Source: Candidatus Altimarinota bacterium (GTDB lineage: Bacteria; Patescibacteriota; Gracilibacteria; BD1-5; UBA6164). From it: a stretch of DNA of 64,000 nucleotides. The stretch's first letter is position 1, and every line of letters starts with the position of its first letter. A program made the position numbers and the translations under genes. The notes beneath the pieces are model-generated. The model had not been told where the DNA came from and ran no database searches. It saw only the letters and a list, made by a program, of their open reading frames with translations. Location: the NCBI GenBank assembly GCA_028697205.1, contig JAQVFO010000001.1, positions 71,086 through 135,085 of the forward strand, in the 5' to 3' direction. This document shows, piece after piece, positions 1,399 through 8,044 of the stretch.

Positions 1399-1971
1399 AT
1401 GCATCATATGATAACAGCAATGAAAATGCAAGTTTGATGAGTTGTAAAAATAGGGAATGAACTACTTTTAGTATTAAGAAAAGAAATTCATAGATGAGGT
1501 AGATGAGCTACAAATATAAAAGTTAAAATGAAAAATTTATTAGCTTGAAATACTACTGATAGAGTTTTTGATAGTGAAGAAAAAATGGATGATATAATTT
1601 TAGAAAGATCTAAATTTGAGTTTTTATACCAATCTGGTGATACATTTTATTTTATGAATAATGAAACTTACGAACAAATAGAATTAAATGCAGAAGATGT
1701 ATGAGATAATGTAAATTTTATGACTCCATGATTAGTTGTAGATATACAAAGATATGAATGAAGACTAGTTTGAGTAATCCTTCCTGCACAAGTTAAATTA
1801 TTAATTACAGAATGTGAACCAGGTGTTAAATGAAATACAGCAGACTGAAGAGTTGTAAAAGAAGCAACATTAGAAACATGATATACAATAAAAGTTCCAT
1901 GATTTGTTGAATCATGAGAATATGTGATAATTAATACAGAAACTTGAGAATATAGTGAAAGAGCAAGATAA
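1399..1971 (+). CDS. efp: Elongation factor P, arginine type
   Basis: This 190-residue protein is EF-P, which binds ribosomes stalled at polyproline and promotes peptide-bond formation. The three beta-barrel domains align along the whole length: KMKNLLAG and the TTDRVF / ILERS strands of domain I, the middle OB domain, and the C-terminal GNTADGRVVKEATLETG and INTETGEYSER signatures. The tip loop that carries Lys34 in E. coli reads HRGGRGATN here, so the modified position is Arg (about residue 35), as in the rhamnosylated EF-P of Pseudomonas and Neisseria. Several ATGs crowd the start (1399, 1408, 1420). The first is used here, but EF-P families usually begin nearer the later ones. The gene converges on earP at 1987, which supplies the matching modification enzyme. 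Confidence 0.95.
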
Positions 1972-1974
1972 TAA

Positions 1975-2014
1975 AGAAAAAAAATACTAAAAATTAATTT
2001 TTAGTATTTTTTTT
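1975..2014. terminator. Bidirectional terminator between efp and earP
   Basis: A perfect AT-rich inverted repeat (AAAAATACTAAAAATT and its complement) with T-runs on both sides sits just after the efp stop. It includes the last codons and TAG of earP, so one hairpin can end both convergent transcripts. Confidence 0.7.
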
Positions 2015-3054
2015 AATTCAGTAAGTAAATTGCAATTTTGTTCTATATAGTTTCATAAAAATTTAAATAAATTATGAAAATCTTGTTTATCTAAGAAACT
2101 ATTAATGGCTTCATTTTTTTGTGATGAATTAAAAAACCTCAAAATATCTAAGTTTATTCAAAAATCTCAAACAAACTTCAAAAAATCATCTAATTTTTCA
2201 TTATGAGCTCAATTTTTTTCTTTATAAATATCCCATAAAGTTGGTTTTCAATAAGCAAGGGAAGTACATAAACTATTTTCTCATCTTACAAAGTTTATAT
2301 CACAAATAGATAGCAATTCATTAAAGTCTAATAATTCTAGAAATGGCATAAAAAATAGATTATTTGATTCTGATTTATAATTATTTTCATAATCAAAGAT
2401 AAAAAATACTTCATCATTTCTGTGTTTTATTGATTTAAGTATTTCACTAAGAGAGTCTTTATAAACAAAAACAGAAACCCATTTATTATTTGCTAGGTTT
2501 TTTGATAATTTTAGATTATATTTTTTATTTATATAATTTAAATAATTTTCTTTTATATCTCATCTTGTTTTTATTTTATTTATAATTATTCCTCAAGTGT
2601 TTTTAATTAGACTAGGAATAAAATGAATATATTTATCTCAATTAATTTCATAAGTTGTTCAATGTAAATTTTCAACTCACTTATGAAGTAAAAAATATCA
2701 AAATTGTATTATAGTTTTATTTGTTTCTCATTTTTTTAAATAATCATTTGATAATCTATAATCAAAAAAAGTAAAAATATTTTTTGACGGAATATGATTA
2801 TTTAATTCATTAATATTTAAAAAAGTTATTTTTTCTTTTCAATTATCTCAAATCATTTTATTAAATAATTCTTCATTATCAGAAAAAAACCTAACTTTTA
2901 AGTTTTTGCTTTCTGAAGTCATATTTAAAGCTAGATTTAATGCGAATCAAATATCTCAATAATTATCTATAATAGGAACGTAAAAATCTATAGATGAGTT
3001 CATATGAAGACTAGATAAAGGATGTATAATATTATAAAAGTTATTCAATGCCAT
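1987..3054 (-). CDS. earP: EF-P arginine rhamnosyltransferase EarP
   Basis: EarP transfers L-rhamnose from dTDP-rhamnose to the tip arginine of EF-P. The 355-residue product shows both family signatures: IDNYGDIG near residue 30, the N-terminal Rossmann motif with the catalytic aspartates, and RGENSL..AYGKP.LWDIY..NGAHNEKLDDFL near residues 255-295, the nucleotide-sugar site. The usual length is about 370-390. The start at 3054 has AAAGGAG ten bases upstream, unusual here. An internal ATG at 3003 would put the signature at the typical distance from the N-terminus, so either start is possible. The gene overlaps the end of the upstream exchanger by 67 bases, or by 16 with the inner start, and converges on efp. 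No rhamnose synthesis genes are in the window. Confidence 0.88.
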
Positions 3055-3965
3055 CTATTTAATACTCCTTTATTTCAAATTATAATTCTTTTACTATGTG
3101 AAAAGTATAAAAATATCATAAGCAAAGTTGTAACTCCCAGTTCAATTACTATATAAATTATATCTCAATTTGCTATATTTATAGGTGTTATTAATCATGC
3201 TAGTGATAATCATAAAACGATATTTATTATATTAGATCAAACTATGTTTCAAATTATTATATCAGTTTGTTTTTTAAAACTTGCTACAATTGATGCAGCT
3301 AATTCAGGAAGACTTGTTCATATAGCAACAATAGTAAGTCAAATAATAGTTTGTGATATTCCAAATGAAGTTGCAATTGATTCTGCTGATCTAACAATTA
3401 CTTCTGCTCATAATGCAAGTCATATAGATCATAGAATTATATATAAAACAGATTTCCAAGTTGATAATTTTTCAGTATGTTCTTCTGCTTCTTCTTCCAA
3501 AATCTTCATAATTCAAAATGTATATGAAAGAAAAATTATAAAAAATAGTATAAGAACAAGTGAATCTCAAAATGTAATTATATTTTTTGAAGCTTTTGAT
3601 AAAATCACATCATTAGCTAGAAAAAATAATGCAAGTGATGTAAGTAAAGTAAAAGGGACTTCTTTATAAACTGTTGAATTTTGGGCTTTTAATGGATAAA
3701 TTATTGCAGAAATTCATAGTATAAGAAGTATATTTGCAATATTTGATCAAACTATATTTCAAAGTGCAAGACCTGTTTCTCATTTGATAGCTGAAACTGT
3801 GTTGATAAATATTTCCGGAGCAGATGTTCATACCGCAACAATTGTTAATCATATAACTAAGTTAGAAATTCAAAATTTTCTTGCAATATTAGTAGATCAT
3901 TCTACTAAATATCAAGCACATTTTATAAGTATAAAAAATCAAACAATTAGAAGTATATAATCCAT
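2988..3965 (-). CDS. Calcium/sodium antiporter, YrbG family
   Basis: A 325-residue integral membrane protein, the same length as E. coli YrbG, with two inverted halves. Each half has the alpha-repeat of the Ca2+/cation antiporter superfamily: GLTIVAVGTSAPE.. with GNIVGSNIANI in the N-half, and GLTIVAIGTSLPE.. with GNIVGSNIINI in the C-half. The acidic residues of these repeats coordinate the ion. About ten hydrophobic helices are separated by a central acidic loop (EEEAEEHTEK). It probably exports Ca2+ in exchange for Na+. The last 22 codons overlap the 5' end of earP, so the two genes probably share a transcript. The start at 3965 gives a membrane helix directly at the N-terminus. Confidence 0.93.
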
Positions 3966-5716: not shown

Positions 5717-8044
5717 ATGCTTGATTTTTGAATACTTTCGATGAATGAAAGAAATCTTAATTACATTAAAAAACTTAACCCAAAATCATCTGTTAATTTA
5801 GCTGATAATAAGGTTGAAACAAAAATCTTTCTAGAAGAAAGATGAGTTTCTGTCCCTAAAACATTATCTATTATTTCTACAAAAAAACAATTAAACTCAT
5901 TTAATTTTAAGTCATTAAAGGAAGATTTTTTCGTTGTAAAACCAGTTTTTTGAAGCAGATGACAATGAATATTAATAGTTGAAAATTTAAAAAATTGAAC
6001 ATATAAAATCTGATGAGAAATAGTTTCAGAAGAAATTTTGTTAGATCATATGCTAGATATTCTTAACTGAGATTTTTCTCTAAATTATTGATATGATAAA
6101 GTCCTTATTGAAGAAAAATTAATTCCTTGAAATTGATTTGAAAAATTTTGTCAATATTGATTAGCTGATATTAGGTTGATTGTTTATAATTTAGTACCTG
6201 TTGCAGCTATGATTAGAGTTCCAACAAAAATTTCATGATGAAAGGCTAATTTGTCGCAATGATGAGCATGATTTTGAATTGAGGTATGATCTTGAATATT
6301 AAATACATTTTATACTAACTGAAAAGTTTATAAAAAAGAATTTCCTGAAGAATATAAATTATTAAAATGATTTGAAATTCCATTTTGGAATGAAATACTT
6401 CAAGCATCTTCAAAAACTCAATTTTTTGTAAACTTATGATATTTAGCCCTTGATTGGGTAATAACTGGATCTTGACCAAAAATTCTTGAAATAAATGCAA
6501 GAGCGTGACTTGAAATACAAAATGTATGTTTACTCCCTTTAAAAAATAGGTTAGATAAAATAAAAGATTTAAAAATCACTGAACCTGAAAAATGAGTTGA
6601 ATTATCAAAATCATTATTTTCTGAAAAAATAACAACTAATTTTACATCATGAAAGGTTATATATTTGTCTCAAGATGCAAAATTAATTTATGATGATACT
6701 GAGGAAAATATAGTTGTTAATGTTGACTTAACTAAATCAAAAAATTTTATTTCTAGTTATTTGTATGATTTATTATCAAATACAGATTTTACAATTTATT
6801 TTTGAGATGGAATAAAATTTGATAAGTTAAAATTTCAAATTGATGATACATTGGACGATGATGTAGCAGTATTATGAACAAATATAGTAAAAGATTTTTT
6901 TATAAAACCTGAATCAAATATAAAGAAAAATGAATTATTTATTCCAAAAAAGGCTAATAAGAATGAAATTTCATTATTAAAAATAATTGATGAAAAAGTT
7001 GTAAAACTTGATAAGAAAGTAAGTTTTACAACAGTTTTAAAACCTGTAAATTTTCTTGAACAATTAGATAAGTTTATTGAAATGAAATGAAAATATAATC
7101 CAATTTTTGAATATGATTTTCCAAGTGAAGAAAGAATTGAAAATTTAGAGAAAGAAATAACTATATTGAAAGATACATATTTTAAAAAGGATTTAGAATT
7201 AAAATCAGAATTTGCAAATATATTTTTTGAAAAAATAGAAGAAATTTCAAATAGATTAAATCTTATAAAAGCTTATAAGGAACAGAACTTTGTTGATATT
7301 GAGAAATATAATATTAAACTTTTTGGTAAGCTTGATGATAAATTAGTAAAAAAGGCAGTAACAAAACTATGATTATTGGCAAATGATAATGTTTTATGAA
7401 AACAATTAGATCCAAGTTATGTAGTAGAATATATAAAAAATTATTTAGAAACTAATTCTATATTTACCTGAGTTAAGGTAGTTTTATCTACATCAAACAT
7501 GTCTAGAATTTTAGTAAATAGAAAAAAGTGAAAAGCTGAAGTAAGAGTCTCAGTAGATGGGGTTTTTAGAGAAAAAGAATTAGATTGAATAATTGCTCAT
7601 GAAATATGAATACACTTAGTTAGAGCTATAAACTGAAAGAAATCATGATGGAATATATTTGAATCATGAACAGCCGATTATCTTGCAACAGAAGAATGAT
7701 TAGCAGTATATAATAGTTTAAAATATTTTCCTGATGCATATGAAAAAAATGCTATGTATCAAAATTATTATATGATAGATCAAGCAAAAGAACTTGATTT
7801 TCAGGAACTATCTGAATTATGATTTAAATTAAAATGAAATGATTACATAAAAGTTTTTAAAACAATTACTAGATTTAAAAAATGAATCAAGGATACAAGT
7901 ATAAAAAACCATTGAGCTTTTTTCTCAAAGGATAAAGTATATTTAGATTGATATATTCAAGTTAGAGATTGGATTGAAGATTGATGAGATGTAAATAAAT
8001 TGATGATAGGGAAAGTTAAGATTGAGGATTTAGATATTGTGTAG
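5717..8044 (+). CDS. RimK-like ATP-grasp ligase fused to DUF1704 (MATCAP-like) metallopeptidase
   Basis: A 775-residue two-domain protein. Residues 1-290 are an ATP-grasp of the RimK-related glutamate-ligase group: SMNERNLNYIKKLNPKSS start, VVKPVFGSRGQGI phosphate loop, LIEEKLIP, DIRLIVYN, and ILEINARAGLEIQN metal-binding residues. Residues 400-775 are a DUF1704 domain with the zinc motif HEIGIH (His628, Glu629, His633) and the EEGLAVYN element at about 659-666 that names the family (QEGLA). ATP-grasp enzymes of this type form amide bonds to Glu-like residues, and eukaryotic MATCAP enzymes remove C-terminal Tyr/Glu from tubulin. One chain could therefore add and remove a residue, which is inference. 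The start at 5717 includes the MLDFGILSMNERN leader usual for the ligase. The 3' end overlaps the convergent gene by 29 bases. Confidence 0.88.

Follow-up and report, generated by a model that had tools for sequence, protein, structure and literature searches.

An EF-P/EarP gene pair of a distinct deep EarP branch in Patescibacteria, most likely glycosylating EF-P arginine without self-made dTDP-rhamnose

The known sugar donor of EarP is dTDP-L-rhamnose, and the locus described here raises the question of what an EarP gene beside an EF-P gene does in a genome that lacks the pathway to this donor. Earlier descriptions of EarP cover Beta- and Gammaproteobacteria as well as some Fusobacteria, Planctomycetes and Spirochetes (PMC5615199), and no paper on EarP in Patescibacteria was found in the literature searched. 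The window, that is, the whole stretch of 64,000 nucleotides that was analysed (G000:C3:71086-135085), belongs to a genome of 1.27 Mb, 99.1% complete and assembled in 19 contigs. Our reading, to which we give a probability of about 0.68, is that the two genes constitute an EF-P/EarP unit of a distinct deep EarP branch, most likely glycosylating the EF-P arginine without self-made dTDP-rhamnose. The features concerned are the following:

1399..1971, plus strand: EF-P, first copy (TIGR00038, PF08207/PF01132/PF09285; 190 aa under table 25)
1977..2014, no strand assigned: AT-rich hairpin overlapping the EarP 3' end (RNA fold -13 kcal/mol, z -4.8 against 200 shuffles)
1987..3003, minus strand: predicted EarP-family arginine glycosyltransferase (PF10093, fold, catalytic residues; 338 aa)
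2988..3965, minus strand: Na/Ca exchanger (PF01699, 225 bits)

Identity of the two gene products

As shown by profile searches, the 1399-1971 protein scores 200.4 bits against TIGR00038 (cut-off 185.8) and matches the three EF-P domains PF08207, PF01132 and PF09285. Its tip loop reads HRGGRGATN, with no proline at position -2, which bears out the arginine-type EF-P proposed from sequence alone. The tip arginine is R35 when counted from the first ATG and R32 when counted from the ATG at 1408, the latter matching the numbering of P. aeruginosa. EarP-type EF-Ps with an SGRN tip (R32 in P. aeruginosa) likewise have an arginine tip without proline at -2, and they join the window EF-P in the tree (100/99), whereas their loop reads KSGRNAAV against RGGRGATN here, where the glycines are UGA-coded. 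A second EarP-type EF-P is present in the same genome (L069 4995-5543, G000:C14:69664-70200) with the tip HRAGRGATT and 47% identity to the window EF-P; G001 and each of the six genomes of genus g4 have this copy too, and the duplicated EF-Ps may share one EarP.

The family of the neighbouring protein was established computationally. It scores 121.2 bits against PF10093 (cut-off 25) and 117.2 bits against the NCBI equivalog TIGR03837, whose cut-off of 347 marks the level of proven rhamnosyltransferases; since the second score falls below that level, the protein is filed as a divergent variant and not as a proven rhamnosyltransferase. The minus-strand open reading frame spans 1987-3054, yet the family alignment begins at the ATG at 3003, so the start at 3054 given in the sequence-only reading is too long. 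Counted from the ATG at 3003, the catalytic aspartates carry the same numbers as those of P. putida EarP, D13 and D17. The signatures IDNYGDIG and RGENSL..GAHNEKL, on which the earlier assignment was based, were both found, and with the profile score, the EarP fold and the catalytic residues they keep the protein inside the EarP family. An AlphaFold model built with 23 relatives reached a pLDDT of 92.3, and a Foldseek comparison with the PDB returned EarP structures as the 14 best matches (E 6e-18 to 1e-7), the first non-EarP family appearing at E 1e-6. The product of the 1987-3003 gene is a divergent EarP. With EarP of Pseudomonas and Neisseria (GT104, PF10093) it shares the GT-B fold, D13/D17/E273, the aromatic cage, R271, S275, Y291 and an efp neighbour; it differs in its low identity (14-17% in structural alignments), in being convergent and not in tandem with efp, and in the absence of RmlBCD from the genome.

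The EarP gene carries 17 TGA codons, all at glycine positions. In proteobacterial EarPs the glycine frequency is 0.35 at these positions against 0.07 overall, and it reaches 1.0 at G16, G19, G137 and G241. In-frame TGA at conserved glycine positions indicates that the gene is native to a UGA=Gly genome, which rules out contamination and gene miscalling. In this genome UGA serves as the main codon for glycine (20,845 of 25,426 glycine codons are TGA). The suggestion that UGA decoding might have a special link to ribosome-stalling factors found no sign in its favor: PP motifs are not in excess genome-wide (219 observed vs. 242 expected), PPP motifs number 13 against 6 expected, and a special need for EF-P arising from UGA=Gly or polyproline was rejected. 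A valyl-tRNA synthetase-like protein (C3:314123-316783) retains a PPP motif.

The residues D13, D17, F191, Y193, R271, E273, S275 and Y291 are kept in the window EarP and in its clade, the catalytic ones almost without exception (D13 31/31, D17 31/31, and E273 30/32, with Asp in the other two). The dN/dS of EarP ranged from 0.29 to 0.37 with the window/G004 pair left out, and the genome pairs without RmlC and RmlD gave 0.29 and 0.37. EarP is therefore under purifying selection, and a degenerate EarP in genomes devoid of rml genes is ruled out.

Distribution, neighborhood and origin of the pair

Across the class (99 genomes, the window's own and 98 relatives), PF10093 and a profile of the clade mark the same 31 genomes, which belong to two families of a single order; EarP thus occurs in 31 of the 77 genomes of the order and in none of the 22 others. 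Matches to the clade profile were all or none, with E 4e-55 or better and nothing intermediate. No EarP besides that of the window's own genome was found among 380 genomes drawn across the phylum, nor was any found on phages or viral contigs. Among the genomes searched, the unit appears to belong to a deep EarP branch of one order of Gracilibacteria/Absconditabacteria-type Patescibacteria. The EarP-type EF-P (loop R[GA]GRG[AST]T) is present in 30 of the 31 genomes with EarP and in 2 of the 46 without it (G054 and G068; Fisher p 7e-18), which agrees with a unit gained and lost together and restricted, within the phylum sample, to this order. G055 and G062 (L095, L082) lack EarP, and their EF-Ps, which belong to the EarP-type lineage, have a changed loop, KSTNKGRGKG, as expected if loop and enzyme were lost together.

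It could be argued that EarP no longer modifies EF-P, or targets another arginine, and that EF-P works unmodified. Arginine-tipped EF-Ps of the same family are common without EarP, so a bare arginine may suffice and an arginine tip alone is no proof of modification. These native EF-Ps (KV[MV]GRGGSI) form another EF-P branch and co-occur with EarP in just two genomes, G036 and G042, both of which also have the EarP-type EF-P. EarP is paired almost perfectly with a single EF-P type, the genes are adjacent, the catalytic residues are intact and dN/dS is low; on these grounds we consider an unmodified EF-P quite improbable. Elsewhere in the order and class (L031-L117), EF-P tips include Arg without EarP (KV[MV]GRGGSI), Met (VAMGKG), Gln in several forms and Lys.

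The EF-P and EarP genes are convergent and separated by 15 bp, and the hairpin between them at 1977..2014 is a possible two-way terminator. The same convergent adjacency was counted from coordinates in 14 genomes, while in others of the order the genes lie apart; this contrasts with the statement that EF-P and EarP genes are always adjacent (PMC7199390). On the right-hand side the unit is flanked by the Na/Ca exchanger gene, which shares the strand of EarP, lies upstream of it and overlaps its start by 16 nt. Within the genus of the window, the EarP-type EF-P and EarP occur in G000, G001 and G004, which lack a native EF-P; in G002 and G003, conversely, the native EF-P is present and EarP is missing. 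The exchanger is a neighbor common to G004, where the pair is present, and G003, where it is absent. The G003 exchanger is followed on its right by the same two genes, in the same order, as in the window (L264, L294, L215). Its left-hand neighbor is the gene that in G004 comes before EF-P, and neither EF-P nor EarP lies between. This is an EF-P/EarP-free site, and gain or loss are both possible. Further along the window (5717-8044), a sugar-transfer-associated ATP-grasp domain is fused to a MATCAP domain of the tyrosine carboxypeptidase type, in one protein, with homologues at the corresponding position in G003 and G004.

Regarding origin, the sequence-only reading had suggested lateral acquisition of the whole modification system and had looked to EF-P and EarP trees for an answer, and the two trees bear on it differently. 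In the EarP tree, sampled from the order, Proteobacteria and Fusobacteriota, the EarPs of the order constitute one clade apart from the proteobacterial and fusobacterial clade (100/100). Two separate clades exclude a recent transfer from the sampled Proteobacteria, and the clade of the order is a deep sister of the other, not nested inside it. In the EF-P tree, by contrast, the order's EarP-type EF-Ps fall together with SGRN EF-Ps from Proteobacteria and Fusobacteriota (100/98.9; 998/1000 bootstraps), separate from the native EF-Ps of the same families. With the tip-loop columns removed the support fell to 93/62, in an alignment that did not yet include the fusobacterial sequences. The AU test of a first quick EF-P tree favored the opposite grouping, and the figures used here come from later, more careful trees.

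The pair may instead be ancestral to the order and lost in most members. EarP does form one clade within the order, and the AU test does not reject a monophyletic grouping of the order's EF-Ps (p 0.125). Nevertheless, congeners have, elsewhere in the genome, a different EF-P of the native type together with an EF-P/EarP-free site, both EF-P types coexist in G036 and G042, and the EF-P tree unites EarP-type EF-Ps of three phyla (100/99), which makes an ancestral pair unlikely. What stands of the earlier claim is the grouping of EF-P with other phyla; the AU test and the lack of a sampled donor keep its support weak. A lateral origin of the pair thus appears likely, if weakly supported, and its donor is none of the phyla sampled.

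The donor pocket and the source of the sugar

RmlC and RmlD had no match in the window genome, and the only protein similar to RmlB is GalE. A search with the rml proteins of G004 against the genome sequence (1,271,504 of 1,271,871 bases) confirmed the absence. An assembly gap hiding the genes is unlikely, because the counterpart of a gene flanking the G004 rml cluster sits inside a 332-kb contig here, without rml. The need for a dTDP-rhamnose supply predicted earlier is therefore not matched by the genome, in which the search for RmlB, RmlC and RmlD disclosed no route to this sugar. More broadly, RmlC is missing from 12 of the 24 EarP genomes that are at least 90% complete. On the other hand, rmlC is somewhat commoner with EarP (13 of 31 genomes vs. 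8 of 46; p 0.02, kinship not corrected), a hint that cells which make rhamnose also use it. Since the pathway is missing, the donor would not be dTDP-L-rhamnose of the cell's own making, and the sugar would come from the host or be a different one.

The residues of the donor pocket bear on this choice. F191, Y193, F252, F258, R271, S275 and Y291 are all present in the window EarP, while Q255, D274, R278 and R23 are replaced by L, N, T and N, respectively. Q255, R278 and R23 are each found in 78 of 78 proteobacterial EarPs and in 0 of 32 members of the order's clade, where position 255 is mostly L or I. Position 274, which holds 76 D and 2 E in the 78 proteobacterial EarPs, is replaced in 32 of 32 clade members, mostly by N, and H289 is replaced by Asp in 31 of 31. 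In P. putida EarP, Q255 contacts the sugar ring of the nucleotide at its 3'-OH, and D274 forms a bridge with R23 (PMC5615199); the two latter positions have changed jointly in the order's clade. The pocket is identical in close relatives with and without rml genes, so the presence of rml was rejected as the cause of the changes, the same replacements being found in rml-bearing relatives. The fusobacterial EarPs of Ilyobacter polytropus and Fusobacterium vincentii belong to the same family, adjoin an efp and fall with the proteobacterial clade in the tree. They keep R23, R278, H289 and an acid at position 274, whereas the EarPs of the order do not, and their efp lies downstream of earP on the same strand with an SGRN tip, in contrast to the convergent efp of the window. 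Q255 is Tyr in one of the two, that of Fusobacterium vincentii, so the loss of Q255 is no proof of a new donor.

One explanation is a normal rhamnosyltransferase whose dTDP-L-rhamnose is taken from host or prey, either ready-made or as imported parts from which the cell makes it. We know of no dTDP-sugar importer, at least 12 near-complete EarP genomes lack RmlC, and pocket residues that all sampled proteobacterial EarPs share are replaced in rml-bearing relatives too, which together make scavenging somewhat unlikely. Its plausibility derives from the described Absconditabacteria, two of which have been cultivated and feed on the cytoplasm of gammaproteobacterial hosts (PMC8080830, PMC11452946). 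In addition, rml genes are retained in the close relatives G004, G032, G029 and G059, which have the same EarP pocket, and in P. putida EarP the rhamnose moiety itself is without protein contact (PMC5615199).

Alternatively, the EarPs of the clade may use UDP-Glc, UDP-Gal, UDP-GlcNAc or UDP-ManNAc, which would make the product an undescribed modification of EF-P arginine. The nucleotide-sugar enzymes found in the window genome are all of the UDP type, namely an Arch_glmU-type bifunctional enzyme, a GalU-like enzyme scoring just below its cut-off, GalE and WecB. Q255, the sugar ring contact in P. putida (PMC5615199), is Leu here, R278 and H289 are changed as well, and the donor seems independent of rml. 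Against this, the aromatic cage that surrounds the base is retained and does not separate T from U, and the Arch_glmU-type family says little, because it is present in nearly all genomes of the order with or without EarP. A changed donor is a tentative proposal; we lean slightly towards it, as the pocket changes extend to the whole clade, and rate a UDP-sugar a little above host-derived dTDP-rhamnose.

Proposed function and meaning

We hypothesize that the window EarP is an EF-P arginine glycosyltransferase, most likely not dependent on self-made dTDP-rhamnose. From its GT-B fold and the known enzymes we infer an inverting mechanism, in which D17 and E273 would activate the guanidino group of the EF-P tip arginine. 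EarP would then most likely glycosylate this residue, with a UDP-sugar made by the cell or dTDP-rhamnose taken from the host as donor, and the glycosylated EF-P would rescue ribosomes at proline stretches.

EarP is carried here by host-dependent cells, often without its donor pathway, and their EF-P may bear either rhamnose from prey or another sugar, both of which would be new. Because at least four EF-P loop types are mixed within it, the order is a natural experiment in the gain, loss and swap of EF-P modification. If a switched donor is true, this EarP branch would put a non-rhamnose sugar on EF-P arginine in cells unable to make dTDP-rhamnose.
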